Source of the DNA: Elusimicrobia bacterium RIFCSPLOWO2_02_FULL_39_32
GTDB lineage: Bacteria; Elusimicrobiota; Elusimicrobia; 2-02-FULL-39-32
NCBI GenBank assembly: GCA_001800135.1
Contig: MGUU01000008.1
Location: 1 to 64,000, forward strand
Direction: 5' to 3'
DNA length: 64,000 nucleotides
Numbering within the stretch: position 1 is the stretch's first letter; the number at the start of each line of letters is the position of its first letter. Below the pieces are notes generated by a model. It did not search any database and had not been told where the DNA came from. It was given only the letters and a program-made list of their open reading frames with translations. Of this stretch, positions 3,488 through 31,900 are shown in pieces. The position numbers and the translations under genes are program-made.

Positions 3488-4567
3488 ATGAACAATAAAG
3501 AGCTTATTTTAGAAACCATTCAAAAAATCACTCCCTTAAAACAGGAGTGGTTTGAAACTGCAAAAAAACGTTTAGACAATTTAACTAAACCTTTGGGAAG
3601 TTTAGGAAGACTGGAGGATTTGGCTCAAAAAATCTGCGCCATTCAAGAAAATGATCATCCCACTTCTAAAAACAAGGTTATTTTTACTCTAGCCAGTGAT
3701 CATGGAATTACAGAGGAAGGAATCAGCGCTTATCCTCAAGAAGTCACTCCCCAAATGGTTTTTAATTTTATTAACCAGGGAGCGGCCATTAATGTGCTCT
3801 CTAAAACAGTGAACGCTAAAGTAGTTGTTGTGGATATTGGCGTTGCCCAAGAAATGCCAGAACTCCCCGGATTAATTAATAAAAAAATAAGAAAGGGAAC
3901 TTCTAACTTTGCCAAAGAGCCGGCAATGTCTAGGGAAGAAGCATACCAATCTATTGCTACAGGAATAGCTTTAGTAGAAGAGGAAATAAAAAATGGGGTG
4001 GATCTTATTGGAACAGGTGAAATGGGCATAGGAAACACCACTCCTTCCAGCGCCATTACCGCAACCATCACTGACAAAAAAGTAGAACAGGTGACAGGAC
4101 AAGGAACAGGCATTCCTCAGGAATCCCTTAATCATAAAATTGGAGTGATTGAAATCGCGCTTGCCCTGCATAAACCTAATGCGCAGGATCCTATAGATGT
4201 TCTTTCTAAAGTAGGGGGATTTGAAATTGGAGGCATGGCGGGCATTATGCTTGGCGCAGCTAAAAATCGAATTCCAGTTGTGATTGATGGATTTATTTCC
4301 GGCGCAGCAGCTTTAATTGCCCATGGTTTATGTCCTACAGTGTCAGAATATCTCATTCCAGCCCATCGCTCCAGTGAACCCGGACACGACGCAGTTTTAA
4401 AACATTTGGGCTTAATTCCTCTTTTAGATTTAAGAATGAGATTGGGAGAAGGAACAGGAGCAGCTTTAGGCATGTTTCTTGTTGAGGCTTCCTTAAAAAT
4501 AATAAATGAAATGGCTACTTTTGAGCAGGCCCATGTCTCGGAAAAGGTTGAGATTTTAATAAAATAA
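3488..4567 (+). CDS. cobT: Nicotinate-nucleotide:dimethylbenzimidazole phosphoribosyltransferase
   Basis: CobT makes alpha-ribazole phosphate from nicotinate mononucleotide and the lower-ligand base. Conserved blocks include LASDHGITEEGISAYP, GEMGIGNTTPSSAI and, near the C-terminus, RLGEGTGAALG, which carries the family's catalytic glutamate. The ATG at 3488 is preferred over an in-frame upstream start at 3464 because AGGAG (3476-3480) lies 7 nt before it. The mature product is about 359 aa, normal for the family. Together with bluB in this locus it points to a benzimidazole-type lower ligand. Confidence 0.95.
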   Translation: MNNKELILETIQKITPLKQEWFETAKKRLDNLTKPLGSLGRLEDLAQKICAIQENDHPTSKNKVIFTLASDHGITEEGISAYPQEVTPQMVFNFINQGAAINVLSKTVNAKVVVVDIGVAQEMPELPGLINKKIRKGTSNFAKEPAMSREEAYQSIATGIALVEEEIKNGVDLIGTGEMGIGNTTPSSAITATITDKKVEQVTGQGTGIPQESLNHKIGVIEIALALHKPNAQDPIDVLSKVGGFEIGGMAGIMLGAAKNRIPVVIDGFISGAAALIAHGLCPTVSEYLIPAHRSSEPGHDAVLKHLGLIPLLDLRMRLGEGTGAALGMFLVEASLKIINEMATFEQAHVSEKVEILIK

Positions 4568-4568
4568 A

Positions 4569-5345
4569 ATGTGCTTGAGACTTTTTTTAATTGCCCTACA
4601 ATTTTTAACGATTCTTCCTCTTAAAAAAAACTATCTGGAAGAGGAAAAAGATTTGGCAGGATCTATGATCTTTTATCCTTTGGTGGGGCTACTGATAGGA
4701 CTTTTAACCTTATGGATCTATCGCTTTAGTGAAAGATTCTTTATTCCCTCAATCAGCCTTATCTTTGCTTTTATAGCCGGAATAATATTTACAGGCGCCT
4801 TGCATCTGGATGGTTTTGCGGATTGCTGCGATGGTTTTTACGCTGGAAAAAACAAAGAAGAAATTTTAAAGATTATGAAAGATTCCCGCATAGGAACCAT
4901 GGCAGTGGTAGGACTTTTTTGTCTTTTGCTATTAAAATTTTCTCTTTATTTTTCTTTGCTTTTTAAAGATCAGCTTAAAGACGCTTTTCTAATTGTTCCA
5001 GTAATTAGCCGCTGGCTTATGACAGTAAGCGCCAGCCTTTATCCTTATGCTAGAGAAGAAGGAACTGCTGCTCTTTTTCTTAAATATATTGGAAAAAAAG
5101 AACTCTTTTTTTCTTCTCTCTTGTTAAGTGTCATAATCGCTCCAGTTTTAGGTTTTAATGGGATCACTGTTGCCGCGTTCAGTTTTAGTGCGGTATGGTT
5201 CTTCTTGCAATGGGTTAAAAGGAAAATTGGGGGACTTACTGGAGACATATTAGGAGCTGTGAATGAACTTGCTGAAATTACAGCGCTATTTGTTTTTCAA
5301 TTCATCGCTTCAAATGGAATGAGTCAATCATTCACTTTAATTTAA
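4569..5345 (+). CDS. cobS: Adenosylcobinamide-GDP ribazoletransferase (cobalamin synthase)
   Basis: Polytopic inner-membrane enzyme of 258 aa that joins adenosylcobinamide-GDP and alpha-ribazole (phosphate). The metal-binding signature LHLDGFADCCDGFYAG (about residues 77-92) and the following DSRIGTMAVVG block are diagnostic. Several hydrophobic segments surround them. The ATG starts one base after the cobT stop codon, so translation is probably coupled. Confidence 0.95.
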   Translation: MCLRLFLIALQFLTILPLKKNYLEEEKDLAGSMIFYPLVGLLIGLLTLWIYRFSERFFIPSISLIFAFIAGIIFTGALHLDGFADCCDGFYAGKNKEEILKIMKDSRIGTMAVVGLFCLLLLKFSLYFSLLFKDQLKDAFLIVPVISRWLMTVSASLYPYAREEGTAALFLKYIGKKELFFSSLLLSVIIAPVLGFNGITVAAFSFSAVWFFLQWVKRKIGGLTGDILGAVNELAEITALFVFQFIASNGMSQSFTLI

Positions 5346-5350
5346 CCCAA

Positions 5351-5431
5351 ATGAAAATAGAAATTCAATACAGCGATGATCAAAAGATAGCGCTATTTTC
5401 TGTGGAATTCATAAATTCAAATAAATGGTAG
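5351..5431 (+). CDS. Possible 26-residue leader ORF before cobD
   Basis: A short frame begins MKIEIQYSDDQKIALF and ends in TGG-TAG, four bases before the cobD ATG. It occupies nearly the whole cobS-cobD gap. No clear ribosome-binding site precedes it. It may couple translation of cobD or be chance; no family is recognised. Confidence 0.2.
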   Translation: MKIEIQYSDDQKIALFSVEFINSNKW

Positions 5432-5435
5432 GACA

Positions 5436-6527
5436 ATGAATTATACGCATGGAGGCAATGTGCAAGTTTTAGCGCCTGAGGTTGGCGTTTCCATAGATCA
5501 GCTGCTGGATTTTAGCGCTAATATCAATCCTTTTGGTCCTCCAGAAGATGTAAAAACTATTATAAAAGAATCACTCAATGAAATTGCGTTTTATCCAGAT
5601 CCAAACTACTGGAAATTGCGCTCTGCGCTCGCAAATTTTCATAATCTAGAAAAAGAAAATATAGCGATTGCCAATGGAGCTAGCGAACTTATTTTTTGGG
5701 CTAGCCATTTTTTTTCTAAACCAAAAGCCTTAATTTTTTCTCCAAGTTTTACAGAATACTCAGCAGCTGTAAAATCCTGCTTTGGAGAAGTTCAATATGA
5801 GCGCTCTAGAGAAGAATCAGATTTTAAACATTCATTTGAGAATGAATTGCCTGATCTTAAAACAAACCTTATTTTTCTGGGAAATCCCAACAATCCAACT
5901 GGCCAGCTCTATTCAGCTAAAACATTGATGAATTGGATTGAGCGCCATGTTCCAAATAATGGAAAACATCTGGTGGTTTGTGATGAATCTTTTATGCCAT
6001 TCATTCAAAATGATTTAGAACATTCTCTACTTCCTTATGCTTTAAAAGATTCAAGGATCTTAATCTTACGCTCTTTAACTAAAATTCTTTCCATACCGGG
6101 ATTAAGGTTAGGCTATTGCGTTGGTTCAAAAGAAATAATTGAGAAATTTAATTCTCTTATGCCAACATGGAGGGTCAATATTTTTGCTCAAAAAATAGGG
6201 GAAGAAATTAAAAATTTTAAACAATTTATGATTGATTCCTCTAGGATGTTAACTGTATTAAAAGACAATCTAACTGCTCGCTTGCAAGCAATCCCTTTCC
6301 TTAAAACATTTAAAAGTTCTTCAAACTTTCTTTTACTTAAAATTTTAAACCCTAAATTTAGATCTTCTGGATTAACTAAAACTCTATTAAAAAAAGGAAT
6401 CCTGATCCGATCCTGCAATGATTTCTTTGGATTGGAACAGGATCAGTACCTGCGTATTGCGGTTAGAAAAGAAAATGAAAATAGTTATCTTCTAGATAGT
6501 TTAAAGGAAATTTTTTATGGCAGCTAA
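5436..6527 (+). CDS. cobD: L-threonine-O-3-phosphate decarboxylase
   Basis: PLP-dependent fold-type I enzyme (363 aa) that decarboxylates threonine phosphate to (R)-1-amino-2-propanol phosphate, the linker of the nucleotide loop. The N-terminal MNYTHGGNV and LDFSANINPFGPP blocks are typical. The PLP lysine lies in LRSLTKILSIPGLRLGY, and NPNNPTGQL is the usual cofactor-contacting segment. GGTAGGA provides a ribosome-binding site. The 3' end overlaps cobQ by 11 nt. Its substrate needs a threonine kinase; no pduX is in the window (see the ParB/SerK-like gene at 24521). Confidence 0.92.
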   Translation: MNYTHGGNVQVLAPEVGVSIDQLLDFSANINPFGPPEDVKTIIKESLNEIAFYPDPNYWKLRSALANFHNLEKENIAIANGASELIFWASHFFSKPKALIFSPSFTEYSAAVKSCFGEVQYERSREESDFKHSFENELPDLKTNLIFLGNPNNPTGQLYSAKTLMNWIERHVPNNGKHLVVCDESFMPFIQNDLEHSLLPYALKDSRILILRSLTKILSIPGLRLGYCVGSKEIIEKFNSLMPTWRVNIFAQKIGEEIKNFKQFMIDSSRMLTVLKDNLTARLQAIPFLKTFKSSSNFLLLKILNPKFRSSGLTKTLLKKGILIRSCNDFFGLEQDQYLRIAVRKENENSYLLDSLKEIFYGS

Positions 6528-8052
6528 AGTCTTAATGGTGCAGGGCACAGCCTCCAATGTTGGTAAAAGCGTTTTGGTGGCAGGGCTATGCCGTTTATTC
6601 AAAAACCATGGAATTAAAGTCGCGCCTTTTAAATCTCAAAACATGGCGAATAATTCTTATGTGACAGAAAAGGGTGAAGAAATCGGCAGGGCACAAGCAA
6701 CCCAGGCTTTTGCTTCAGGAATCCAACCAACAGTAGAAATGAACCCAATTCTGCTTAAACCAACAACAGATAAAAAATGTCAGCTTGTGGTGATGGGCAA
6801 GGTGATAGAATCCTTAACAGCTCTTGAATATCACTCCTATAAAAAGAAACTAAGTCCCCAAATTTTTAATGCCTTAGAACATTTAAGGGATTGTTACGAT
6901 CTGATTGTGATTGAAGGAGCTGGCAGCCCTGCAGAAATCAATCTTAAAAAAAATGAGATCGTAAACATGTTCGTTGCTAAAAAAATCTCTGCTCCTGTGA
7001 TTTTAGCGGGAGATATTGATAAAGGGGGAGTTTTTGCCCAGCTCATTGGCACCTGCCAACTGCTGGATTCTGATGAAAAAAAGTGTATCCGCGCTTTTTT
7101 AATTAATAAATTTAGGGGGGATAAAAAACTTCTGCTCCCGGGTCTTAAATGGATTGAAAAAAGAACAAAAAAGAAAATTTTAGGAGTGATTCCTTACATC
7201 CATAATCTTTCTATTGATGAGGAGGATTCTGTTGTTTTAGAGGATGGATTTGGAACTTTTTCAAAGAATGGAAAATCCACTAAAAATAAACTCCTAGTTC
7301 ATGTAATTAAACTTCCCAGGATTTCTAATTTTACAGACTTTGACCCTTTAAAAAAAGAAAAAAGCGTTTCTTTAAATTACATTGAACATCCTCCCAGAAA
7401 TATTTTGCCAGACCTCTTAATTATCCCGGGAACAAAAAGCACAATCTCTGATCTAAAATTTTTAAAATCTCAAGGGTTTATGGATTATATTCTCCGCTGT
7501 CAAAAATCTAAAGTGCCAATCTTAGGAATATGCGGCGGGTATCAAATGTTAGGGGAAAAGATATTCGACCCTTATAGCGTAGAATCTAAACAAAAAGAAT
7601 CAGATGGTTTAAAAATAATCCCTTCCATCACGGTTTTTGAAAGAAAAAAAACAACAGCTCAAGTGAAAGCGGTGCACCTAGAAAGTAACTTAAAAGTTGA
7701 AGGATACGAAATTCATATGGGTTGTACTCAAGGTAGAAATGGCCAAAAACCTTTTTTCAAGATCACTGAGCGATATGGCATGCCCATAGAAGATTATGAT
7801 GGAACTATTTTATGTTCAAATGAAAAGGAAAATAACTCTTTAATCATGGGCACCTATATCCATGGCTTATTTGATGCTCCAGAATTCCGTTCTTATTTTT
7901 TAAACCAAATAAGAAAAGAGGTTGGATTAAAAAGCATCAAAGATGAAAATAGTGAGGGAGAGGAGACAACAGGTTTTGATCAGCTTGCAAAAATAATTGA
8001 AGAAAACATTGATAAAAAATTACTTATGAGTTTAATTGAAAAACAAAAATAG
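6517..8052 (+). CDS. cobQ: Cobyric acid synthase
   Basis: CbiP/CobQ amidates four side chains (b, d, e and g) of adenosylcobyrinic acid a,c-diamide, using glutamine and ATP. The N-terminal dethiobiotin synthetase-like domain has the P-loop GTASNVGKS (about residues 10-18). The C-terminal class I glutaminase has its nucleophile in ILGICGGYQMLGEKI (about residue 341) and the histidine in YIHGLFD. At 511 aa it has the normal length. It overlaps the end of cobD in another frame. Confidence 0.95.
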   Translation: MAAKVLMVQGTASNVGKSVLVAGLCRLFKNHGIKVAPFKSQNMANNSYVTEKGEEIGRAQATQAFASGIQPTVEMNPILLKPTTDKKCQLVVMGKVIESLTALEYHSYKKKLSPQIFNALEHLRDCYDLIVIEGAGSPAEINLKKNEIVNMFVAKKISAPVILAGDIDKGGVFAQLIGTCQLLDSDEKKCIRAFLINKFRGDKKLLLPGLKWIEKRTKKKILGVIPYIHNLSIDEEDSVVLEDGFGTFSKNGKSTKNKLLVHVIKLPRISNFTDFDPLKKEKSVSLNYIEHPPRNILPDLLIIPGTKSTISDLKFLKSQGFMDYILRCQKSKVPILGICGGYQMLGEKIFDPYSVESKQKESDGLKIIPSITVFERKKTTAQVKAVHLESNLKVEGYEIHMGCTQGRNGQKPFFKITERYGMPIEDYDGTILCSNEKENNSLIMGTYIHGLFDAPEFRSYFLNQIRKEVGLKSIKDENSEGEETTGFDQLAKIIEENIDKKLLMSLIEKQK

Positions 8053-8145
8053 AATTTAAAGATGAAAAATCTAGCCATCTTCTTTATCTTGGTTCTCATT
8101 TTCTAATACATTATTTGGGTAAAAAGCAACTTTAAAATTATACAG

Positions 8146-9117
8146 ATGAATTTTATAGGAATATTAATCATTGCTTATCTCTTAGATTTGCTGCTTGGGG
8201 ATCCGGATTGGATGCCGCATCCAATCCGCTTTATTGGATTTTTAATTGAGAAAGGGGAAAACGCCATTAGAAAAGGCATCTCATCTGAAAAATTAGAATT
8301 GCTGGGGGGAACCTTCTTAACCATTGGCATGATCTCTTTAAGTTTTTTGGTTCCGTGGATGGTTCTAAAAATTTTATTCCAACATTCTCCCGCATGTGCT
8401 GTGCCAGTTGAAATTTTTTTACTTTACGCTTGTTTCTCGACTAAAGAATTGGCGATTGAAAGTTTTTGGGTAAGAGATGCGTTAAAATCAAATGACATTC
8501 CCTTGGCAAGAAAAAAACTCTCATGGATTGTGGGCAGAGATACAAAAAACCTAGATGAAAAAGAGATTATCCGTGGAACTGTGGAAACAGTTGCAGAGAG
8601 TACAGTGGATGGAATTATAGCTCCGGTTTTTTATGCGTGTTTGGGAGGAGCTCCTTTAGCTCTAACTTATAAGACAATTAATACTTTAGATTCCATGATT
8701 GGACATAAAAATAAAAAATATTTTTATTTTGGAAAAACTGCCGCTAAAATTGATACTTTAGCCAACTGGCTTCCAGCCAGGATCAGCGGGTTTCTCTTTC
8801 CAATCGCTGCTGGAATTCTGGGATACTCATCAAAAAGCTCATATCAGATCGCTTGGGGTCAAGGTCTAAATACGCCAGTACCCAATGCTGCTATTCCAGA
8901 AGCTGCCATGGCTGGAGCGCTTCAAATTCAATTAGGGGGTCTAAATACCTATGAGAATGTCCCATTACAAACACCCTATTTAGGTTCCGCAGAAAAAGAG
9001 CTTTCTGTTGAACATATTGATAAATCCATTAAGTTGATGTTTGTGGGTTCGCTCCTATTCTTTTTGATTTGCTTAACTATTCGAACTCTTTGGGGAATAA
9101 CATTTATAAGAGGATGA
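8146..9117 (+). CDS. cbiB: Adenosylcobinamide-phosphate synthase
   Basis: Membrane protein of 323 aa (CbiB/CobD family) that attaches aminopropanol phosphate to adenosylcobyric acid. Diagnostic blocks are LLGDPDWMPHPIRFIGFLIE at the N-terminus, the GRDTKNLDEKEIIRGTVETV segment, the DGIIAPVFYACLGG loop and NAAIPEAAMAGAL. The 93-nt gap before it holds only a 14-codon frame at 8062, which I do not call as a gene. A TTATAC hexamer just before the ATG may be a weak internal -10. Confidence 0.95.
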   Translation: MNFIGILIIAYLLDLLLGDPDWMPHPIRFIGFLIEKGENAIRKGISSEKLELLGGTFLTIGMISLSFLVPWMVLKILFQHSPACAVPVEIFLLYACFSTKELAIESFWVRDALKSNDIPLARKKLSWIVGRDTKNLDEKEIIRGTVETVAESTVDGIIAPVFYACLGGAPLALTYKTINTLDSMIGHKNKKYFYFGKTAAKIDTLANWLPARISGFLFPIAAGILGYSSKSSYQIAWGQGLNTPVPNAAIPEAAMAGALQIQLGGLNTYENVPLQTPYLGSAEKELSVEHIDKSIKLMFVGSLLFFLICLTIRTLWGITFIRG

Positions 9118-9157
9118 TTTTAAAAAATAAATTTTTCCATTTTCGTTTTTTTACACT

Positions 9158-10591
9158 ATGAACATCCCTAGAATTATTGTTTCTGGAACACAAAGCGGTG
9201 TTGGAAAAACTTCTGTAACATTGGCTTTAATGGCTGCCTTTAAAAAAGTTGGGATTAAAGTGCAGCCTTTTAAAGTTGGTCCTGACTATATTGATCCTAG
9301 TTATCACCAGCTTGTTACAGAAAAACCATCTCATAATCTAGATACATGGCTGCTTACAAAAGAAAAAGTCCAGTGGTTATTTCAGAAGGAATCTCATAAT
9401 TGTGAACTAGCCATTATTGAAGGGGTCATGGGACTCTATGATGGTTTTGGCAGTTGTGAAGAAACCGCAAGCACTCAGGAAATTGCAAAACTTTTAAACT
9501 GTCCTATTGTTTTGGTCATTGATGCAAAAAAAATGGCTCGTTCGGCTGCGGCTTTAATCTTAGGTTTTAAATCTTTTGATCCTGCTCTAAAAATTGGCGG
9601 AGTGATTCTTAACAAAGTGGGAAGTTTAAGGCATTACCAAATATTAAAAGAAGCTGTAGAGACCTATACTCAAATTCCTGTTTTAGGCGGGATCCCTTCC
9701 AATTTAAAAATTCATGTGCCTGAAAGACATCTTGGTCTTTTAACTGCTTCTGAAAATAAAGAGTTTAAAGAACTTCTAAATGCTCTAACTGATTTGATTC
9801 GTCCGGATCCTGAAAAAAATAACCCTGGAATTAATTTAGATGCAATTCTAAAAATCGCTAAAGAAACAGAACCTCTACCTAAAGTAAAATCTCCATCTAT
9901 AGAATTTAATAACAATAATTTAAAGTCTGTAAAAATTGGAATTGCTAAGGACAAAGCATTTAGTTTTTACTATCAGGCAAATTTAGATCTTTTAGAGCGC
10001 TGTGGAGCGAAATTAATTACTTTCAGTCCTTTAGAAACAAAGGAACTTCCAGAGGGTTTAAGCGCTCTATATTTTGGAGGAGGATTCCCAGAAATCTATG
10101 CGCAAGAGCTCCAAAATAATCTTTATTTAAAGAAACAAATTAAAAATTTAATTGCAGATGGTTTACCTGTATATGCAGAATGCGGAGGGTATATGTATCT
10201 TACAGAAGCGATTCAAGATTTAGAGGGTAAAACTTATGAGATGGTGGGCGCAATCCCAGGGAAAATAACAATGACCAAAAAACTCCAAAACTTTGGTTAC
10301 AAACAAGGGAAAAGTATCCATCCTAACATACTCCATGACAAAGAAACCATGGTTCGCGGTCATGAATTTCACTATTCTAAAATGGAGGTTTTGGACTCAC
10401 ATTTTTCTTATGAGCTCACAGATAGAAAAACAGGAAAAAAACAGTTTGAAGGGATTCAAAAAAATAATTTACTTGCATCCTATCTCCATCTTCATTTTTT
10501 AACAAACCCTGAATGGGCGCAAAATTTCGTTAAAGCAGCAAAAAAATACAGTGAAAACTTAAGTTTGAAAAAGGAGACGGCAAAAGTTTAA
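9158..10591 (+). CDS. cbiA: Cobyrinate a,c-diamide synthase
   Basis: CbiA/CobB amidates the a and c acetate side chains of cob(II)yrinate with glutamine and ATP. At 477 aa it has the two expected parts. The N-terminal P-loop domain has GTQSGVGKTS (about residues 8-17) and KVGPDYIDPSYH. The C-terminal glutaminase domain has its nucleophilic cysteine in YAECGGYMYL and a histidine pair in YLHLHF. It closes the first operon; riboswitch 2 follows within 30 nt, and no clear terminator lies between. Confidence 0.95.
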   Translation: MNIPRIIVSGTQSGVGKTSVTLALMAAFKKVGIKVQPFKVGPDYIDPSYHQLVTEKPSHNLDTWLLTKEKVQWLFQKESHNCELAIIEGVMGLYDGFGSCEETASTQEIAKLLNCPIVLVIDAKKMARSAAALILGFKSFDPALKIGGVILNKVGSLRHYQILKEAVETYTQIPVLGGIPSNLKIHVPERHLGLLTASENKEFKELLNALTDLIRPDPEKNNPGINLDAILKIAKETEPLPKVKSPSIEFNNNNLKSVKIGIAKDKAFSFYYQANLDLLERCGAKLITFSPLETKELPEGLSALYFGGGFPEIYAQELQNNLYLKKQIKNLIADGLPVYAECGGYMYLTEAIQDLEGKTYEMVGAIPGKITMTKKLQNFGYKQGKSIHPNILHDKETMVRGHEFHYSKMEVLDSHFSYELTDRKTGKKQFEGIQKNNLLASYLHLHFLTNPEWAQNFVKAAKKYSENLSLKKETAKV

Positions 10592-10619
10592 AAGCCACAA
10601 TTACATCAAAAAATTAAAC

Positions 10620-10782
10620 ATGGGATAGATGTCAGGGAAGTCTCGTGAAAATCGAGCTCTGCCCCGCAACTGTAAACCGCGACGAAAGCTTAAAATAAGT
10701 CACTGGTCTAGTCACAAATTAGACTGGGAAGACCTTTAGCAAGTAGGAAGACCGGTAAAGACAGGAAACCTGGCTATCCAAT
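10620..10782 (+). ncRNA. Cobalamin riboswitch (aptamer 2)
   Basis: A closer match to the cobalamin consensus than aptamer 1. It has CAGGGAAGTCTCGTGAAAAT, the block CTGCCCCGCAACTGTAAACC, AAGTCACTGG, GACTGGGAAGACC and a B12-box-like AAGTAGGAAGACCGGT. The closing stem pairs GGATAG (10623-10628) with CTATCC (10774-10779). No intrinsic terminator follows. A hairpin with arms TGCGT/ACGCA lies between the aptamer and the GAGGGAG ribosome-binding site of the porin, so translational control is likely. Confidence 0.92.
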
Positions 10783-10835
10783 AAAGTTGCGTACGAAAAT
10801 AAATCGGAACGCATTCTTCGAGAGGGAGAACAATG

Positions 10836-12200
10836 ATGAAAAAAATTAAAGTTGTTGCAGCTGTATGTCTAGTAGTTTCTAGTTTCTTTTATGGAATTCA
10901 GAATCTTGGCGCTGTTTCAGAAGAGGAATTCCAATCCTTAAAAAACAAAGTGCAGGAATTGGAAAAATATACTTTCCCGCCTGAAAAAGCAGAGGAAATA
11001 AAAAAGGTAACTGAATATGTTTGTCCTCAAGGACATACCTATGCCTTCCCGCCAGAACATTTTATCTGTCCAGAAGATCGCCTAATTGTAAAAAAAAGGT
11101 TCGCTTTAATAAAAATGAAACTAGACAGAAGAGAGGCAGTTGGAGATAAAATTAGCAGCATGTTAGATGAAGAGTTTCAAAAAAGGGTGAATGTGGCGAT
11201 CTCTGGAACTGGAATAGTCCAACACATTGCTGAGAGTCTTGAAAGCGCCACTAAAAAACAAACTTTTGCTCAAGGTTCAATAGATGTTTATCTGCTCAGC
11301 AGGCCATTCATTAACACCTTGTTTTTTATTGACATAGAATCTCAAGGCGGACAGGGACCAGATTCTTCTATCCCAAACCAATCTGTGCTTAACAATGATA
11401 CAACCTCTTTACCTGGAGTAGTCCAGACAGATCAAGTGCGTTTAAGGGAGGCATGGTTACAAAAAACAGCCATGAGTCAAAAAATCCAGTTTATAATTGG
11501 TAAAATAGACCTGACTAATTATTTTGATCGTAACAGAGTTGCCAATGATGAGACCAGCCAATTTATAACTGGCGGATTGGTCAATAATTTGGTTATAGGC
11601 AATGCTCCAAACGGACCAGGAATGGCTCTTCTTTATGATTCTCACAAAGGGTTTGCTCTAGGTATAGGCGCGCAGAGCGCTGACGGGAATGGAGTGAATG
11701 TAACAGAAGAACCTTTTTCTATTTCTGAAATTGCTCTAAGATTTAGACTTTTGCATGGGGCTTTAGGAAATATTCGGTTTTGGGCTGCAAGAAATGGTAG
11801 AACTGTGGGAGAACATAGGGACGATTACTCCCTGGGAACTAGCCTGGATCAAGAGATCGGATCAAAAATGATTCTTTTTGGAAGAGTGGGTAGAGCTATA
11901 AAAAAGGAGCCGGTGCGAGATCCTCACTTCTGGAGCGCGGGGTTGATGTTACAGAATTTTATTCCTGCAAGAAGGCGAGATAAATTTGGGATTGGCTACA
12001 GTCACTTCTTAACTCCCATTGAAACTGGTCTTACAGCAGAAACTGAAAATATTGGAGAGTGTTATTACTCAATTTTTTTAAGTGACCATCTTAATCTTTC
12101 TCCCAACATTCAAACTATTTTTCATTCTGCGGGATCGTCCCAAGGAGCAGCGCAAAGCAATGTTTTAATATTAGGATTAAGAACACAGATCACATTTTAA
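10836..12200 (+). CDS. OprB-like outer-membrane porin with N-terminal metal-binding-type motif
   Basis: Exported outer-membrane protein of about 454 aa with a signal peptide in the first 27 residues. Tandem ATGs lie at 10833 and 10836; GGGAG at 10824-10828 favours 10836. Counting from 10833, a short coiled coil (about 29-60) precedes a Cys/His motif with C64, H68, H76 and C79, resembling the YxCPMHP...CP heavy-metal-binding domain with parts of the ligand set lost. The rest is beta-barrel-like, with the porin block RLREAWLQ...IIGKIDLTNYFD and a terminal phenylalanine. As the first gene behind riboswitch 2, it probably admits cobalt or a corrinoid; substrate unproven. Confidence 0.7.
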   Translation: MKKIKVVAAVCLVVSSFFYGIQNLGAVSEEEFQSLKNKVQELEKYTFPPEKAEEIKKVTEYVCPQGHTYAFPPEHFICPEDRLIVKKRFALIKMKLDRREAVGDKISSMLDEEFQKRVNVAISGTGIVQHIAESLESATKKQTFAQGSIDVYLLSRPFINTLFFIDIESQGGQGPDSSIPNQSVLNNDTTSLPGVVQTDQVRLREAWLQKTAMSQKIQFIIGKIDLTNYFDRNRVANDETSQFITGGLVNNLVIGNAPNGPGMALLYDSHKGFALGIGAQSADGNGVNVTEEPFSISEIALRFRLLHGALGNIRFWAARNGRTVGEHRDDYSLGTSLDQEIGSKMILFGRVGRAIKKEPVRDPHFWSAGLMLQNFIPARRRDKFGIGYSHFLTPIETGLTAETENIGECYYSIFLSDHLNLSPNIQTIFHSAGSSQGAAQSNVLILGLRTQITF

Positions 12201-12252
12201 AAATGGTGTAAATTTTTAAAGTACTTAAAATAAAAAATAAAAGGAGGAGTCA

Positions 12253-13455
12253 ATGAACAAAATAAAACTAATCATGAGCGGGCTGATTCTTTGTTTAGCC
12301 GTTAGCTCCAATGCGCAGATGGAATCTCTATCAGAGGAGAATAATCGTTTGTTTGTGGCAAACCAAGATTCAGATTATGTGTCAGTTATTGATTTAAAAA
12401 CCTTGCAGCTCTCCAAAAAAATTAATTTGGATATTTTAAGCGCTTCACACATGACCATGGCATGGACTGGAAAAACTGGCCAAAAACTTCTTGTAACCAT
12501 GACAGGCAGGAATGAGGTGGCGATTGTGGATGTAGAAAAAGGGATTGTAGAAGCGAAGCTTCCAGTTGGAAGGTCCCCTGAACATTTTGCCATTGAAAAA
12601 AATAAAGATTATCCTGAATATTTTGCCTATGTCGCTAACTTTGACGATGGCTCAATCTCAGTGATTGACCTTGCGCTCAATAAAGAGATAAAAAGAATTA
12701 ATGGTTTTTATGAACCGCATGGGGTTACATTTAATGCAGACGCTTCCAAAGCCTATATTGCAAACTTTGGAGCCCATCGCATAGATGTCATTGATACCGC
12801 AAAACATGAAATTGCCAAACAATTGAGCATAGGAGATGTTTATCAAGTCGCTTTAAAAAACCCTTCGCGCTACTTATCGGAAATTAAAGGAATTGCCAAT
12901 GTGACTTTAACTTCAAATGGCCGGTATGGTTATGCCGCGGATGGAGATTCAAATCTCGTGGCAGTGATAGATACTGAAAAAGATAGCATTGTAAAAACCA
13001 TTCCAGTAGGAGAAGATCCGTGGAGAACTTATCACTCCCCAGATGGAAAATGGATGCTTGTGCCAAACAATGGGGATGAAACTGTATCTGTGATTGACGC
13101 TGAAAAACATAAACTAAGATCTACATTCCCAGCAGGCGGAACTATTACTGGAATTAATTTTGTATTGGGTGGGAAAAAAGCCTATGCCTTAGCTACCACT
13201 GAAAGCGAAGCGCTTCTCCATGTATATGATCTTCAAAAAATGAAAGAGAAAGGAACAATCTTAATTGGTAAAGGTCTCCGTTTAGAAACTGCTTCCACAT
13301 CTGTGGATGGTAAGACAATCTATGTAGCATCGTCAGTAGATAATTCCATCTATTCCATAGATGCTGAGACTGATAAAGTAACAAAAATTGCAAACGTAGG
13401 GATTACTCCTTGGGGAACAACCATTCAAGGAGACATGGCTTCTTATTGCCACTAA
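12253..13455 (+). CDS. Secreted YVTN-type beta-propeller protein
   Basis: A signal peptide (residues 1-21, ending SSNA) is followed by about seven repeats of the YVTN/YncE type: RLFVANQDSDYVSVIDLKT, YVANFDDGSISVIDL, YIANFGAHRIDVIDT and others. The protein should be a periplasmic or secreted seven-bladed propeller of about 380 residues. AAGGAGGAG gives a strong ribosome-binding site. It sits 52 nt after the porin under the same cobalamin riboswitch. Propellers of this kind bind ligands or partners, but the ligand cannot be read from sequence. A periplasmic partner of the porin is one possibility. Confidence 0.75.
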   Translation: MNKIKLIMSGLILCLAVSSNAQMESLSEENNRLFVANQDSDYVSVIDLKTLQLSKKINLDILSASHMTMAWTGKTGQKLLVTMTGRNEVAIVDVEKGIVEAKLPVGRSPEHFAIEKNKDYPEYFAYVANFDDGSISVIDLALNKEIKRINGFYEPHGVTFNADASKAYIANFGAHRIDVIDTAKHEIAKQLSIGDVYQVALKNPSRYLSEIKGIANVTLTSNGRYGYAADGDSNLVAVIDTEKDSIVKTIPVGEDPWRTYHSPDGKWMLVPNNGDETVSVIDAEKHKLRSTFPAGGTITGINFVLGGKKAYALATTESEALLHVYDLQKMKEKGTILIGKGLRLETASTSVDGKTIYVASSVDNSIYSIDAETDKVTKIANVGITPWGTTIQGDMASYCH

Positions 13456-14366
13456 ATAAAAATCCAAAGCCAACATTGGATTGTGAAATTTTTCTAGATT
13501 CTCACAAACAACGCTGGTCTTGGGATAGAAGATTAAAGCTTTTTGTTACAATTCTTCTAGTTTGTACTCTATTTGTTAGTCGAAACTATCTGCTAGGGGA
13601 CGAAAGATCAAAGATCAATGAAATCCCTGGTTTAAAAAAAGCAATAGTTCAAGCTATTCAAAAGTATTATTTTAAACCGGTTAACATAAATGAATTTGAG
13701 AAGAGTTCTTTGTCTGAAATATTACAAGTTTTGGACAAAGACTCTTCTTTAATTCAAAGCGAACCAAAAAAGTCAGATTTTGTCAGGGGTTTTAAGAATA
13801 AAAAAAGTATTAAAAATTATAAAATTATTGCTGAAAAAATTGGGGTTTTCCATATCTCTTATTTCTCTAAATCCACTGCTAAAGAATTTGAAAAGATCCA
13901 TAAAAAATTGACTAAGGATGGAGCTTCTAAACTGATCTTAGATTTAAGAGGAAATGAGGGTGGGGATTTTGATTCTTGCTTAAAAATAACAGAACGTTTT
14001 GTGTCGTATGGGGAAACATTAGCAATCATTCAGGAAAAAGAGAAAAAAATTATAAAAAAATCAGAAAATAAGGTCCCCATAAAAATTCCCATGGTCATTC
14101 TTGTGGACAGCAATACCGCATCTTCTGCTGAATTTCTTGCTTCATCGCTAAGAAAACACAATCAGGCAACAATTATTGGACTTCCCACACAAGGAAAAAG
14201 AACAGTTCAAAAAATGATTCCTGTAGAAACACTGTGGTTATCATTGACAGTTGGGACTTGGGAAATAACTGGAAATAGCGATGAGTCAGAAAAGATTGAG
14301 CCAGATTTTTTTATCGCTAATAAGGATCAGCAACTAGAAAAAGCTATCTCACTATGCAAACATTAA
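13446..14366 (+). CDS. Membrane-anchored S41-family (C-terminal processing type) peptidase
   Basis: The recognisable parts are a transmembrane segment (LKLFVTILLVCTLFVSRNYL) and the S41 core. LILDLRGNEGGDF is the oxyanion/substrate block, the catalytic serine is in SNTASSAEFLASSL, and the catalytic lysine is in PTQGKRTVQ. No PDZ domain is evident, so it is short for the family. The start is uncertain: TTG codons at 13410, 13446 and 13482 are in frame, and AAGGAG at 13427-13432 favours 13446, overlapping the end of the propeller gene. It overlaps cbiX by 13 nt. A protease is unusual in a cobalamin operon. Confidence 0.65.
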   Translation: MPLNKNPKPTLDCEIFLDSHKQRWSWDRRLKLFVTILLVCTLFVSRNYLLGDERSKINEIPGLKKAIVQAIQKYYFKPVNINEFEKSSLSEILQVLDKDSSLIQSEPKKSDFVRGFKNKKSIKNYKIIAEKIGVFHISYFSKSTAKEFEKIHKKLTKDGASKLILDLRGNEGGDFDSCLKITERFVSYGETLAIIQEKEKKIIKKSENKVPIKIPMVILVDSNTASSAEFLASSLRKHNQATIIGLPTQGKRTVQKMIPVETLWLSLTVGTWEITGNSDESEKIEPDFFIANKDQQLEKAISLCKH

Positions 14367-15166
14367 AAAAAGCGATCCTTTTGATTGGACATGGCTCTAG
14401 AGATCCTATTGCGGTAAAAGAATTTCTAGATTTTGCCAATGAGTTTCAAAGCAAAAATATCAAAACTTTTGGGAATGAAATGATAGTTACCAGCGCATTT
14501 TTAGAACTGAGCTCACCTACCATTCCTCAAGCGCTGCACACGCTTGCAAATGATGGGATAAACCAGATTACGGTAATCCCCTATTTACTCTTTAGCGCTG
14601 GCCATGTAAAAACTGAAATCCCTGAGATTTTAGAGGAATTTAAAAACAGGGTTCCTCAAATTAATATTCTTTATGGAAACTCTCTTTGGCCGCATAAAAA
14701 TATAATCCAATGCGCTAAAGAAAAAATTATGCAAAGTTTAAATAAATTCCCGCAAAACCATTCTAGGGATGTGGATATTTTAGTTGTGGGAAGAGGAGCC
14801 AGTGACAGCCAAGCGATTGAACAATTTACAGAAGCGGTCAATCATCTCCGTGTTGAAATACCTTGCCATACCTTAAACCATTGTTTTATAGCCCTTGCGG
14901 AACCAAAATATACAGAGACCTTGCCTGAAATATTGAACAATTCATGCAAAAAGTTACTTATCTTTCCTTTTTATCTATTCACTGGAATTTTGGTTAATAG
15001 AATTCAACACCAGGCAGAAGAGGCTAAAAAAATATATAAAGAGGCTAGAATAGAAATTGCGCCTTACTTTGGTTCAGATCCCCTCATGTTTCAAATGTTA
15101 AAAGAAAAAGTGGTCGAAACTTCTAATAACTTAAATAATTTATTAGGCGCTCTTAAGAATTATTAA
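14354..15166 (+). CDS. cbiX: Sirohydrochlorin cobaltochelatase, long CbiX type
   Basis: Class II chelatase that inserts cobalt into sirohydrochlorin, the committed step of the cobalt-early corrin route. At 270 aa it is the duplicated long form. The N-terminal half has the metal-binding histidines in LIGHGSRDP and LFSAGHVKTEIP. The C-terminal half has VVGRGASD and FYLFTGILVNR, where the histidines are missing, as in other long CbiX proteins with a single active half. Its first codons overlap the S41 peptidase gene. Confidence 0.9.
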   Translation: MQTLKKAILLIGHGSRDPIAVKEFLDFANEFQSKNIKTFGNEMIVTSAFLELSSPTIPQALHTLANDGINQITVIPYLLFSAGHVKTEIPEILEEFKNRVPQINILYGNSLWPHKNIIQCAKEKIMQSLNKFPQNHSRDVDILVVGRGASDSQAIEQFTEAVNHLRVEIPCHTLNHCFIALAEPKYTETLPEILNNSCKKLLIFPFYLFTGILVNRIQHQAEEAKKIYKEARIEIAPYFGSDPLMFQMLKEKVVETSNNLNNLLGALKNY

Positions 15167-21365: not shown

Positions 21366-23114
21366 ATGGAACAAAATGAGCAGATGAAACCTAAAGGAAA
21401 ATTATTATTAGTTGGCTTTGGACCAGGGGATCATGACCACTTAACTTTTCGCGCTAAAGAAGCGATTGGGGAAGCAGAAATTATTATTGGATACAGAACC
21501 TATATTAACCTTGTTAAAGAACTCATTGTTGGAAAACAGGTGATTTATACTGGAATGACTGAAGAACTTGCCAGAGCCAGACGCTCCATAGAAATAGCTT
21601 ATGAAGGAAAAAAAGTGGCTTTAATTTCTAGCGGAGATATTGGCATTTATGGGATGGCTGGCCCAGTTCTTGAGCTCTTAAAAGAAAGGGGTTGGAAGCC
21701 AGGAGAAGGGATAGAAGTAGAAATTATCCCAGGTGTGACTGCTCTTACCTCTTGCGCTTCTGTTTTAGGAGCGCCTCTCATGCATGATTTCTGTTCAATT
21801 TCATTATCTGATCTTCTCACCCCCTGGGATATCATAGAAGCGCGGATTGAAGCTGCGGCAAAAGCGGATTTTGTGGTTGCGCTTTACAACCCAAAAAGCG
21901 GCCGTAGAACTAGACAAATTCAAGAGACTCAAAAAATCTTACTTAAATATCGTTCCTCAGATACCCCTGTGGGTCTAGTTAAATCCTGTAAAAGAGATAT
22001 GGAGCAGATTGTTATTACAGATCTAAAAAACATGTTAAATCACGAAATTGGCATGCTCACCACAGTGATTATTGGGAATACGAATAGCTTTCGTTATCTG
22101 GATTTTATTGTCACACCCAGAGGTTATAAAAATAAATATGATCTGGAATCCAGCAAAGTAAAAGAGGGACAAAGAGCTGGTATTTCTTTAAATACAGAAC
22201 TTTTACAAAGCCCGTATAAAAAAGTTAATGTAATTTCTGATCCAGAATCTGATTCAACCTCTTTAACTTCTATTTCACAAACTCCATTATCTCCTTTCTT
22301 AAAAGATGAAGATAGAAAAGAGAATCAGGCTGGAAATAACAGAAACTGGGGAACTCTTTATGGCATAGGCGTTGGACCTGGGGACCCCGAGCTCTTAACA
22401 GTTAAAGCGACTAAAGCTTTAACTAAAGTCTCTCATATTTTTTACCCATCCTCCAACGGAACAGATGAAAGTATGGCTTTAAATATTATTGAACCTTACT
22501 TACAAGAAAACACTAAATTTCATACACTTTTTTTTCCAATGACCAAAGATAAACAAGAACTAGAAACTCATTGGGACTTAGCTGCTGATACTGTGGCAAA
22601 AATACTTTCACAAGGCGAGGATGCTGTTTTTGTAACTTTAGGAGATCCAATGATTTATAGCACTTACTTTTATCTTTTAAAAACTCTAAAAGCAAGATAC
22701 CCTCAAATCACATGGGAAACCATTCCTGGAATTAGCTCCTATCAATCTGCGGCAAGTTTAATAGATTCTGCCATCAGTGAGGGAAAAGATCGCGTTGCTC
22801 TTATCCCTGTCAATAGAGACGCAAGTAACATTGAAGATGCCTTAGATCAATATGAAACCATTGTTCTTTTTAAAGTAGGATCTAAACTTCCTAAAGTTCT
22901 AGAAATTTTGGAGAATAAAAATCTTTTAGATCAAGGAACACTTTTTAGTTATCTTGGAACCCCAGAACAGTTTATTGAAAGTGATTTAAGAAAAGTTAAG
23001 AGAGAAAAAATAGGATACATGTCCCTTTTAATAGTTAAGAAAAAGAAAGAGATTGTTTCCAGTGAGGAACCAGATGAGGTTGAAGTCCCTGCTAAAGAAT
23101 CAGCATTAGCTTAA
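21366..23114 (+). CDS. cbiHL: CbiH-CbiL fusion: cobalt-precorrin C17- and C20-methyltransferases
   Basis: Two SAM-dependent tetrapyrrole methylases in one 582-aa chain. Residues about 12-250 are CbiH/CobJ (LLVGFGPGDHDHLTFRA, IIIGYRTYINLV, SSGDIGIYGMAGPVLELL), the C17 methylation and ring-contraction enzyme. A variable linker of about 70 residues rich in Ser/Asp/Glu follows (about 255-325). Residues about 326-560 are CbiL/CobI (YGIGVGPGDPELLTVKA, VTLGDPMIYSTY), the C20 methyltransferase. The order in the chain is the reverse of the pathway order. AGAGAGG precedes the ATG. Confidence 0.92.
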   Translation: MEQNEQMKPKGKLLLVGFGPGDHDHLTFRAKEAIGEAEIIIGYRTYINLVKELIVGKQVIYTGMTEELARARRSIEIAYEGKKVALISSGDIGIYGMAGPVLELLKERGWKPGEGIEVEIIPGVTALTSCASVLGAPLMHDFCSISLSDLLTPWDIIEARIEAAAKADFVVALYNPKSGRRTRQIQETQKILLKYRSSDTPVGLVKSCKRDMEQIVITDLKNMLNHEIGMLTTVIIGNTNSFRYLDFIVTPRGYKNKYDLESSKVKEGQRAGISLNTELLQSPYKKVNVISDPESDSTSLTSISQTPLSPFLKDEDRKENQAGNNRNWGTLYGIGVGPGDPELLTVKATKALTKVSHIFYPSSNGTDESMALNIIEPYLQENTKFHTLFFPMTKDKQELETHWDLAADTVAKILSQGEDAVFVTLGDPMIYSTYFYLLKTLKARYPQITWETIPGISSYQSAASLIDSAISEGKDRVALIPVNRDASNIEDALDQYETIVLFKVGSKLPKVLEILENKNLLDQGTLFSYLGTPEQFIESDLRKVKREKIGYMSLLIVKKKKEIVSSEEPDEVEVPAKESALA

Positions 23115-25989: not shown

Positions 25990-28900
25990 TTATTGCTGCT
26001 GCGCGAAAACGCCTATTTCTTGAATATCTTCTTGCATATTAGTATCTAGGAGCGGTGTAGCATTCAATGAGTTTCCAATCAAGCTTAAGAAACTAATCAC
26101 AGCATTCTTTAAATTCTCATACTGTTCAATATTGTCCAATAACTCTTTTAGATTGCCAACCAAATTTCGTGGGATAAAAAGCCTTAGGGGAACTGAACTT
26201 TTCTGCCTCACTGTTCCCACTATTTCATCCAAAACAGCTGGATCTAAAGAATAATTCCCTTCTCTAAACCTGATTAGTCCTGGATCAGCTTTAACTTCAA
26301 GGCTAATCCCTCTCTTAACAGAAAGACGATTGATGGCCCAAATCTCTGCCTCAGATAAATTGCCGCTTAATATGGTAAGTCTGGAATTAGAAACCCCTTT
26401 CGCGCTCAGATGATAAGCGGAAATAATTTGCTCTGCATATCTGACTTTATTTTTAACTAAAGGATCCAAGAGAGCCACAGTGCTGGAATAATCTTCCATC
26501 TTGGACTTTACAAGAACATTCTGGAACTTGTCATTCTTAAATCCAGCCAAAACAACTTGGCTTAAAGAACGGTTTATTTCTTTAGAAGACATTGTGCTGC
26601 CAGTCTCCTCCTGCAATTTTTGTCCAAGATATTCATAGAACTCTTGCGGATCATCTACGGCGCGAAGAAGATCTAAAGCAGGATTAGATATCCCTTTATC
26701 CCCAAGAACAGTTTGAACGTCTAAAGATTGAGCAGTGTTTTGTAAAATCATAGGGACTATTTTTTGCATGTTTGAAAAACTATACAGTCGCTCCTCTTTT
26801 TCAAGTTTAGATATTGCGCGCGCAAAACCATCTGAAATTGAATAGGTTCGGCTATTTTTAGAACTTGAACTTTTTTTAACTTGGATTCCTTTAGCCTCTT
26901 TAAAAGTTTTTCCAATTTTAGCAGAGCCTAAATAGTTGGCGAACTGATGCGTTGGAAATGAAAGGAGTAGGACAGTTAAATTCTCCAGCCACGGAATATT
27001 CACTCCAAGCGCATGGAAAAAAGTTGTGGCAAGAATAGGCAAAACAAAGATGTTCACTGCGCTCACCAAACCTGCAACCACCACATTTCCAAAAGGAGCT
27101 TTTTCCGGCTGACCTTTAATTCTAAAATAAATAAATTCCGCCAAATGAGCAAGCCAGAAGGATCCCCAAACTAAACCATTGAATGTCTCAAATGAAGGAA
27201 GAGAAACATTCCCTGTGAAAAGCAAGTGCAGCAGATTTTCAATGGCAAGCGCAAACGCAACTGTACCTATAAAAAGAAGATTCTCTCTTAAAGAAGCTTT
27301 TCTCACATATTCTTCTGCTGTATATTGAATACTAAACCAGCGGGGGAGCAGCCCATCTCTTACAAAATTAAGCGTGGCAGTAGCAGTTGTTTTTCCTTCG
27401 AAACTTCTGATGATGGTAAGAATTTTTGCAAGTCCAATCATACGGCTGGAAAAACCGCGTTCATTATCGTACCACGCGTCAAAGGATAGAAATTCTCCCT
27501 CAACTCGAACGCTGTTTAAATCTAAAACACTTGAATGAAGATATCCTTTAACTTCATCAGAATCAATAGGATAAGGTTTGTCATGCAGATGAAAAATTCC
27601 GCTCATTTCCGGTCTTTCATAAGCCTGACGAAATATCTCTTTAACATCTTCGGTTGGAATCCCAACATACTCAGGCTTTAATTTTATTCTTACATTTACA
27701 ACTGAAGCTCCGCCATACCCTTCTCTTAAAGCCACAGCTGTGGTTCTTCCGATGAGTTCAGGCATTGCTTTGCCAATAGTCTGTCCAGCTCCAGAGCTGC
27801 TTAAGAGCATGGTTCTGGCTGCGGCAAACATTCTTTCCATTACATCATGCAAAGGTCCATGATTTAATCTTTGATCATTAGTAAGTTCATGCAAAGTAAT
27901 AGCGCTTACAAAATCAGCCATGTGCTTAACAAAGTAAAGAGCAACAGCCAAAGCGCCAGTTGTACAACTTCCAAGGGTGAATATCTCTTCTGCCCGGATC
28001 AGCTCTTGCAAAGCCTTATCTTGTAAATTCATGGCCCCTGGAATCACAAGCAGGGATTCTCCCTTTCCCGGATTGCCATAAATCATAATGTCACCTTGAA
28101 TTTCAAACCAATCTTTTTCTTTAAAACGATGGTACCCGCTTCCTGCTGCATGCAGATAGATTGGATGAAACCCCTTTGCCCTTAATTCAGCAATTTGTCT
28201 TTCCAAACCGCTAAGACTTGAGCCGTCAAAAACATCAATCCTAAGCCATCCTTTTTCATTGTTTCCGGCCAAAATCACAAAAGTGTTTGTTTTATCATCC
28301 CAGCCAGCATACTCAAATTTTATTCCGGGTCTTCCATAAACAGTATCGTTATTCAAAGCTTTCGCAGTAGCAATGACTTTTTCTTCTGTTGGTTTATAAA
28401 GAGTAACTCCCAAAATATTCACATTAGGATCCCCAATCGCTGCCAGAAGCATATTTTTGCCAGTGCGTCCTCCAACAGCGCTAATGATTAGATCAGCTTT
28501 TCCGCCATTCATCTCTTTAATTCTGGGTTTGGGTTCCAAGGGAACTACAGAAGGCAGGATAGAATAGGTTGCAGTTTGTCTCTTATTTTTGCTATTTCCT
28601 GGATTATCTTCCGCATCTTGCGCTAAATTCTCAATCATCGCTTGAGCAAGTCCTGATTCTCCCATCCAAATAGGAAGCGCCCAAAGCCGTCCTTTCCCTG
28701 TAATTTGAGGTTTACTAATCATGGCTAAAACTGGATTGTCAACCATATCTAAAGATGCTAAAGCTTCTTCTGTAACTTCAATTCTTCCGCCAGAAGCCCT
28801 AACCATTTCTCCAACCAAAGCAATGACCGCATCTCTTTCCAACTCTTCATCAAATTCAATTACAAAATTATGCAGATCACCTTCCAGACGAGTGGGGGTC

Positions 28901-31900
28901 TCAACTCTATAACCATCTGTTCTATAACTTACAGCAAATTCTGAATTGCGCAAAGGCACTGTGCTAAATATCCGAATGCTGGTATCATCTAAACCGCGCA
29001 ACGCTAAAGATTCTTTTAAATAATTTTTAAGAATTAATAAACCATCCATAGATGGCCGCACATGCCGTACCCCATTGAGATGATATGGCTCTCTTAAAGC
29101 CTCATAAGCGCTCATATCCTCTAAATCGTCGCTAACGACCAATATAGAATCAATATTATCTTCATTTAATATCTTGGAATCTTTAAGAATGGATTCACTG
29201 GAAATTTTAATTTTAGCTCCTTGAATATAGAGGTAGGTAAACCCCTGTTTTTCAAAATCGTTCTTATATTTTTCAAATTTTTTTACGTCAAAACCATCCA
29301 GATAGATGCGAATATGTTTAGGCAAACGTTTTTTAATCGCATGATAGAGAAATAAGACATCGCTCACATTCTTAACTCCATAAAAATTAAGAGAGAGTCT
29401 CTCATCTCCCATGAGATCAATGACTAGACTGGATGCAAAATGATCCAAAGGATTTCGCTGATTTGAATCAAATGGAATGTCGGATATTTCAACAGCTACC
29501 CTATTATAAACTCCCTTGGATTCTCTTTTTAATTTGGCTACTGGCGCTGGGATATATCTTTGACCTTCCGGCACCATTTTTCTATCGCTTTTAAATGGTT
29601 TCTTATCACTATCAGAAGAAGAAACAGATTTTTCTTTATCCCTTTCTAAAGACTCCTCTCTTTTATACTTATCCGGATCTTGAACCGCATCTAAAACAGC
29701 AGCTGCCCAAACATTTGCAAAGTCATAACCAAATAGGACTGTTACGGTTCTATGATCCACTATCACACTCCTAGGATCAAAATAGATAGAGCTCTCCCCT
29801 TGCACAAGACTAGGTCTTAAAGAATCGTATGGCTCTAAAACTTTAAGCCGCGAACCAGAAGCCTCTGCCACTTTTTTTAACCTTGAAACAACCTCCTCTT
29901 TAGTTAACTTTCGATCTAAAGTAAATGTGACTGCGGTTAAATGCGCATCGTACTGGCTGGATTGTACCTGAAGATAGCCTTTCCTCATTACTTTGGGCAA
30001 AAGATTTGCCATAGGAGCTGGAAGAATTTTACTGCCAACCACAATATCATGGCTCCTGTCGCGAGTAGGGTCAATAGCAGAATTGGTATGGACCACATGA
30101 CCTAACATATCCAAATCAGCAAATGCTGTTCGAGTTAAATTTACAGCCATCTCTACTGGAGTCATTTCATCAGTTGCCATGACAATATTTTTTGCTCCCA
30201 TTTGCCGATGGTGTTCAGGATCAATTTGACCGCCTGCTGCTTTATGAGCATAAATTACTGTATCTATTCCAAGTTTTTGCCAATTAGGAAGGACTTTGTT
30301 TGGATCTATTTTTTCTCCCTTCTTTATAGTTCCAAGAGCTTTGCTAAAAATGACTTTAATTGGAGAGGAGTGATTGATAATGATTGAATCTCCATCAGGA
30401 GCGATTTCAATATCGCTTTGCGGCATGATTTGGCGCAAATAGGCTACAAAGACATTTGTATCTAAAGGATTTTCCGTTGTTTCTTCCACATAGATATATT
30501 TAAGTATAACATCCTCTTTGCCGCGAAGCTGTTTGATTAATTGTCCTGAAACAACTTCATCTCCTCCATAAATCCCAATAATTTTTGGTTCGCTCTTTTT
30601 CCCTGTTTTTTCAGGATGCTGCGGAATTGATTGCGCGCTAAGGTTAACTTGATCTTGTCTTTGTTGAAGGGTTTTCAAATAAAAGTCATTTTCAAATTCA
30701 TCTTTTTCCCGTCTTTCAGCAGAACTCTGAATCTCTTTCAAAATATTGTCTGCTGCTACCCAGTCTGGAATCCATGCGCGAAGTGTCACTAAACGGCCAT
30801 TCCCCTGCACAGAAATGCTTTTATCTAAAATAAGAGGCTTATCATGTTCTTGCACGCTGATAGAATTAGGGATCCAGCCTCCTTCAGCAAAATAGATGGG
30901 CCAGCCTTGCAAATTAGCAGACCGTAAAATTTCCATCATTCCTTCAACATCCATTTTAATTCCTTCATCTAATATTAGATTTAACTGCGCATATCCTGCG
31001 CCTTCATGCGTATGAGACTCCCATTTTTCACCAAGACCTTTTTTAACTCCATGGAGCCGAAGATTTCTTGCGGCCTGATCTGATTTTTTCTGCAAGATAT
31101 GGCTTTCACCTGGAACCACTGAGATCAGTTCCCATTGTTTTAATTTATGGTTAAGAGCTCCATCTAAATACTCAATAAGGGGGGAAAGAGCAGTTGTGAG
31201 TCCTGTATTGTGATAGCGAACACGAGGTTTTGGGTTTGTATCTACAGGAGGATCCAATTCAGGATTTAGAACATGCGCCATTCTTCCTTCGTGCCAAGGT
31301 CGTTGACGTGGATCATCATCAAAATCATCTGGATCCTGGTCTGTTAAAAAAATAACATCTTTTGGTGATTCGCTTGAATATGAAACATATTTACCAGGTT
31401 TAATTACAATGGTTTTAGTCTGGCCTTGAGAATAGATGGAGATGCTCCATTCACTATTGCTCTGGAATTTGTCAACCTTTAGATCAAACTGAAACCTGCC
31501 TTGATAGGGGTTAGCTTTTAAATGGTCATAAAAGGCCTGGAACTCATTATCATTGTTAATTCCATAAATAGTTGAAATTTCAAAATTAGGATTAAACCCC
31601 TGTCCTCTTTTATCTCCCAATGCTCTGCGTACAATTTGTACAGCTGTATTTTTTATTGACAAGTTATCTCTCTTGCCAAATGCTCCATCCACATCTAACA
31701 CGATCTCTACTGGGACCATGAGAGTAACTTCGGTTGGTTCATCTTTTTCATCTTCTAAGATCGGAGCAAGATGATGCAGCGCTAATTCTTTAGCGTTGGA
31801 TTGCGTAGGCTGCGCCTCAGGAGCATTTTTCTCATCCCGGGCTAGTTTTAGTTTCCGAATCAGGTAAGGCCTAATCCCACCCCAAATAAGAGTAAAATAA

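Follow-up and report, generated by a model that had tools for sequence, protein, structure and literature searches.

A riboswitch-linked OprB-type porin and secreted YVTN propeller as a candidate outer-membrane cobalt acquisition pair in Elusimicrobiota and Nitrospirota

A gene encoding an OprB-type porin, preceded by a cobalamin riboswitch and followed by a gene encoding a secreted YVTN beta-propeller, was identified in an Elusimicrobiota genome (G000, hereafter the host; 2.52 Mb, 97% complete), in three further members of its family and in Candidatus Manganitrophus (Nitrospirota). We see roughly even chances that these two proteins form a cobalamin-repressed, TonB-independent pair acquiring cobalt at the outer membrane. 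This reading is favored by the B12 control, the linkage to cob and chelatase genes, the absence of the canonical B12 uptake genes and the metal-type residues of the propeller. Somewhat less probable is the fuller version, in which the porin would be selective and the propeller a periplasmic metallochaperone for cobalt, the two making up a riboswitch-controlled, TonB-independent cobalt importer common to the two phyla. According to a 2021 review, a cobalt-specific outer-membrane receptor had not yet been confirmed in any case (PMC7689651). The passage of cobalt across the outer membrane is therefore an open question, for which the pair provides a concrete two-gene candidate from two distant phyla; if the reading is correct, it shows how organisms lacking TonB receptors couple the permeability of the outer membrane to their B12 status. 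Our literature search yielded no report of an OprB porin and a propeller located downstream of a cobalamin riboswitch.

Organization and control of the locus

The window analyzed is a stretch of 64,000 nucleotides of the host genome. The cassette lies between cbiA on one side and cbiX on the other, and the genes following cbiX are those of the anaerobic cobalamin pathway. The features are as follows:

10610..10791, plus strand: cobalamin riboswitch aptamer (RF00174, 77.4 bits, full model)
10814..10830, plus strand: hairpin with the Shine-Dalgarno sequence inside it (TTCTTCGAGAGGGAGAA); probably the expression platform, acting on translation (predicted fold)
10833..12200, plus strand: OprB-type porin, 455 aa (Pfam PF04966, E 8.1e-20; orthologues in two phyla)
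10950..11192, plus strand: N-terminal segment of the porin, about aa 40-120, containing a CPxG...CP hairpin (C64, C79) and conserved in the alignment of five orthologues
12253..13455, plus strand: YVTN beta-propeller of 400 aa, secreted and eight-bladed, with Tyr-Cys-His at its C-terminus (TIGR02276, 1.5e-46; model pLDDT 73.7)
13410..14366, plus strand: S41 peptidase (Pfam PF03572, 1.4e-32)
14354..15166, plus strand: CbiX, sirohydrochlorin cobaltochelatase (Pfam CbiX, 3.1e-44)

The aptamer covers positions 1-189 of the Rfam model, with a score well above the gathering threshold of 31.5 bits, and 41 nt separate it from the porin start codon. An earlier note based on the letters of the window had described a cobalamin riboswitch ahead of an OprB-like porin and then a secreted YVTN propeller, and this description was borne out. 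The TTG start listed for the S41 peptidase runs into the propeller ORF, and the true start probably lies further in.

Since the hairpin 3' of the aptamer encloses the Shine-Dalgarno sequence and is near-identical in three orthologous loci (the host, G053, and G293), it suggests that the porin is under translational control; the hairpin is unexceptional when compared with shuffles of the same stretch. In G296, a hairpin of the terminator type followed by a T-run was seen by eye in its place. B12 would thus act as a repressor of the pair, in line with its effect on genes for uptake and synthesis in other systems.

A third cobalamin riboswitch was found in the host genome, on the minus strand of L034 (G000:C16:38000-54000, 8137-11113). 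It is followed by a terminator-like hairpin, an ORF encoding a 38-aa peptide with its own Shine-Dalgarno sequence, and genes encoding two proteins, one radical SAM-SPASM and the other MoaA-like, which looks like a peptide-modification cassette controlled by B12. Two other ORFs of the window may also be mentioned. The first (21366-23114) encodes a protein of 582 aa containing a pair of tetrapyrrole methylase domains, which by eye is a fusion of the CbiH-CbiL type. The second (25990-38244, minus strand) is 4084 aa long and carries triosephosphate isomerase and GAPDH C-terminal domains, widely separated; a related contig of G296 (L116, 3-3653) carries another giant ORF, which by eye resembles an enzyme of the transketolase/pyruvate-dehydrogenase type.

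Distribution of the pair and of B12 transport genes

The set of porin orthologues consists of those of the host, of G053, G293, and G296 (92, 68, and 63% identical to the host porin, respectively), all belonging to one Elusimicrobiota family, and of Ca. Manganitrophus. Groundwater was the source of two of the Elusimicrobiota relatives. A cobalamin riboswitch lies directly upstream of the porin in G053 (39 bits), G293 (77 bits), and G296 (97 bits). G053 and G293 share the host arrangement, with cbiA first and then riboswitch, porin, propeller, S41 peptidase, and cbiX; the G293 porin is broken across two contig ends. The G296 cassette comprises the riboswitch, porin, and propeller, but is distant from the cob genes.

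In a translated search of plasmid records, the pair was found on three plasmids of Ca. Manganitrophus, the best porin match being 37% identical and the propeller 45% identical over its full length. The assignment of this porin to the OprB family was confirmed by PF04966 (62.8 bits). Each plasmid has a 92-bit cobalamin riboswitch upstream of the porin, and the cassette lies shortly behind cbiA. The spacing between riboswitch and porin ranges from 34 to 185 nt across the lineages. Orthologous porin-propeller pairs with a recurring cobalamin riboswitch, which the earlier note had proposed looking for, thus exist in three other members of the family and in the Nitrospirota. The scan of genome contigs with two weak peptide patterns returned only three Elusimicrobiota loci, the Nitrospirota being reached only via the plasmid records; scans of viral contigs and a phage search gave no match.

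At about 40 other cobalamin riboswitch sites surveyed in the phylum, this type of porin was found at none. The fact that all the lineages carrying the porin have the riboswitch, while these 40 or so sites lack the porin, argues that the association goes beyond chance. The genes behind the surveyed riboswitches encode TonB receptors, anaerobic ribonucleotide reductase, BtuF-like proteins, and cob proteins. Twelve of these loci have riboswitches before proteins of about 700 aa (L079, L081, L082, L086, L087, L089, L091, L093, L094, L101, L103, and L104); that of L087 is NRDD, a B12-independent ribonucleotide reductase, and the other ribonucleotide reductase calls were made by eye. At L073 (5184-5673, G270:C71), two tandem cobalamin riboswitches precede a single TonB receptor.

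More distant OprB porins occur elsewhere in the phylum (23-43% identity). They were rejected as orthologues, since the 21 that were translated are devoid of the conserved N-terminal region and no riboswitch was detected within the 1.5-kb flanks of the 18 loci scanned. The porin clade is linked with cob genes rather than sugar genes, none of the latter being found beside the porin in any lineage.

The earlier note had stated that neither a TonB receptor nor cbiMNQO is present, and whole-genome searches of the host found neither the receptor barrel PF00593 nor CbiM; PF00593 was also absent from G053 and G293 in such searches. The G296 genome has one TonB receptor, which lies next to exbB/exbD/tonB-like genes and has no riboswitch. 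In the sister genomes the picture differs: TonB receptors are located directly 3' of cobalamin riboswitches in all three of those checked (G238, G270, and G279), and the cob operon of G279 carries CbiM (by Pfam), CbiQ, and CbiO (both by eye) between bluB and cbiD. Of the nine family genomes, the five lacking the porin, and only these, gave strong BtuC matches. Two of the four porin genomes are 72-80% complete, so that the absence of a gene can be taken as firm in G000 and G053 only. CbiD is present in all four, and these genomes encode de novo B12 synthesis. The fact that these genomes make B12 and yet lack BtuC favors cobalt over a corrinoid as the substrate of the pair.

A broader uptake of divalent metals (Ni2+, Zn2+, or Fe2+, for example), switched by cobalamin and with cobalt as one substrate among several, is quite unlikely in our estimation. 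Several metals have been tied to OprB-type porins (PMC545781, PMC9705863), and on the Manganitrophus plasmid carrying the cob operon with porin and propeller (L137, CP114554.1:300000-328837), nikR lies about 12 kb from the pair; however, the cobalamin riboswitch and the location within cob operons, seen in both phyla, indicate a B12-related demand.

Conserved residues and structural relatives of the two proteins

In the Pfam scan of the porin, OprB was the only match (72 bits against a cut-off of 22.9), and no TonB-dependent receptor barrel was detected. Structure prediction failed (pLDDT 27.4). Residues 40-120 or so are conserved in all five orthologues. The residues C64, H68, H76, and C79 are present where the earlier note had placed them, and the two cysteines are invariant in the five sequences, D82 being perhaps kept as well; H68, however, is replaced by E in the Nitrospirota, and H76 by G or E in two orthologues. 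The expectation that orthologues keep the Cys/His residues therefore held for C64 and C79 and not for the histidines, and H76 was discarded as a metal ligand because of its poor conservation. The likeness of this N-terminus to a heavy-metal-binding domain was not upheld either, since neither full-length nor segment scans gave any Pfam match to such a domain at E values up to 10. That the cluster is a domain of this kind, capturing cobalt directly, is thus very improbable despite its presence in the window porin, and C64 and C79, being periplasmic, may just be disulfide-bonded.

The propeller has a Sec-type signal sequence and no lipobox, both judged by eye. Its AlphaFold2 model shows eight blades (strands counted by eye), with H66, H111, and H156 located at the inner-strand starts of three neighboring blades. 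The residues identical between the Elusimicrobiota and Nitrospirota propellers include H66-M67-x-M69, H111, H156, H175, and the C-terminal Y-C-H, whereas overall identity across the phyla is 45% and the residues just upstream of the YCH tail differ; the G296 sequence ends early in this comparison, at a contig end. H156 alone carries little weight, since PHG is common in YVTN repeats. If metal is bound, the His, Met, and Cys residues of the propeller, as putative ligands, are better candidates than the porin N-terminus.

The best structural matches of the model were the heme-d1 propellers NirS (Z 38), NirF (34.6), and NirN (33), although only NirS is clearly ahead, since unrelated propellers also reach Z 33. 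The sequence likewise passes the cut-off of Pfam Cytochrom_D1 (44.6 bits against 25.5), as it does those of other propeller families. The NirS, NirF, and NirN proteins share the eight-bladed fold with the window propeller, but are only 15-18% identical to it, nir genes are absent here, and the catalytic distal His is apparently not conserved. Judged by the ends of the alignment, His182 of Pseudomonas aeruginosa NirS, the axial ligand of heme d1, falls near model residue 64, two residues from H66, in a low-confidence stretch. BtuG, including its cobalamin complexes, and YncE were also among the Foldseek matches.

Given that heme d1 is the ligand of the best fold matches and B12 that of BtuG, the propeller may have a tetrapyrrole ligand. 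The pair might thus capture corrinoids, the propeller binding cobalamin or its precursors in a BtuG-like or d1-like manner, possibly with His66 as an axial ligand and with two conserved pore residues, Trp257 and Trp387, while the porin would be a wide, TonB-independent corrinoid channel. We regard this, the main rival of the cobalt reading, as rather unlikely. It would account for the control by a cobalamin riboswitch and for the fold matches, and Trp/Tyr residues are known to narrow the B12 pocket of BtuG (PMC10404256). Against it stand the encoded B12 synthesis and the missing BtuC, which leaves no known route of import across the inner membrane, as well as the eight blades and the absence of a lipobox, both unlike BtuG. 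Cobalamin is also large for a diffusion porin.

Proposed cobalt route and comparison with known systems

If cobalt is the substrate, low cobalamin would lead the riboswitch to permit the synthesis of porin and propeller, and the OprB-type barrel would let in cobalt, either as Co2+ or in a small complex. The periplasmic propeller would take the metal via His66, His111, and His156 at its pore and the C-terminal Cys-His, and would hand it on toward an inner-membrane importer; CbiX, which inserts cobalt, is the proposed end user. The earlier note had suggested an outer-membrane entry route for cobalt or a corrinoid feeding CbiX: a dedicated B12-controlled route replacing TonB/BtuB stood up and extends to a second phylum, whereas cobalt itself, along with metal binding, hand-over, transport direction, and the inner-membrane partner, is what we infer.

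In the BtuB/BtuFCD system with the Bacteroides BtuG, a cobalamin riboswitch likewise precedes an outer-membrane barrel, which is joined in that membrane by a propeller as its partner (BtuBG; PMC10404256). The barrel is a TonB-dependent receptor there and an OprB-type porin here, and BtuG is a seven-bladed surface lipoprotein with a lipobox Cys, encoded beside BtuB, whereas the window propeller is soluble. In Novosphingobium aromaticivorans, a predicted cobalt-specific TonB receptor with an adenosylcobalamin riboswitch is followed by a NiCoT permease (PMC7689651); a riboswitch thus acts on a proposed outer-membrane cobalt entry there too, but with TonB and NiCoT, both absent here. The FUR-controlled OprB-family porin ahead of feoAB in Geobacter sulfurreducens, proposed for ferrous iron (PMC545781), resembles the present one in its family, its micronutrient control, and its proposed role in metal entry, but it responds to FUR and iron rather than to a cobalamin riboswitch, and no propeller partner has been described.

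In terms of function, the conserved residues of the propeller are best paralleled by those of AztD, a zinc metallochaperone which is also a secreted eight-bladed propeller and whose metal ligands are three His of the pore and one at the C-terminus (PMC6689063). Possible counterparts in the window propeller are H66, H111, and H156 together with the C-terminal H400. This propeller differs in scoring far below the NCBIfam cut-off of the AztD model (16.9 bits against 400) and in lacking adjacent aztABC genes. AztD was not among the structural matches listed, which carries no weight either way.

The cobalt reading is weakened by the fact that no inner-membrane transporter was found in the host among CbiM, NiCoT, and CorA, the families searched for. 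The sole FecCD match in this genome is an ABC-3 zinc-type permease (43 bits). The S41 peptidase present at the host locus also occurs at those of G053 and G293. Elsewhere in the host genome, genes encoding ZnuA and an ABC-3 permease lie on the minus strand of L127 (G000:C4:6000-15000, 4196-7136). The gene ahead of them encodes a 397-aa secreted protein which has no Pfam match and resembles an outer-membrane barrel, and which may likewise assist a metal importer from the outer membrane.
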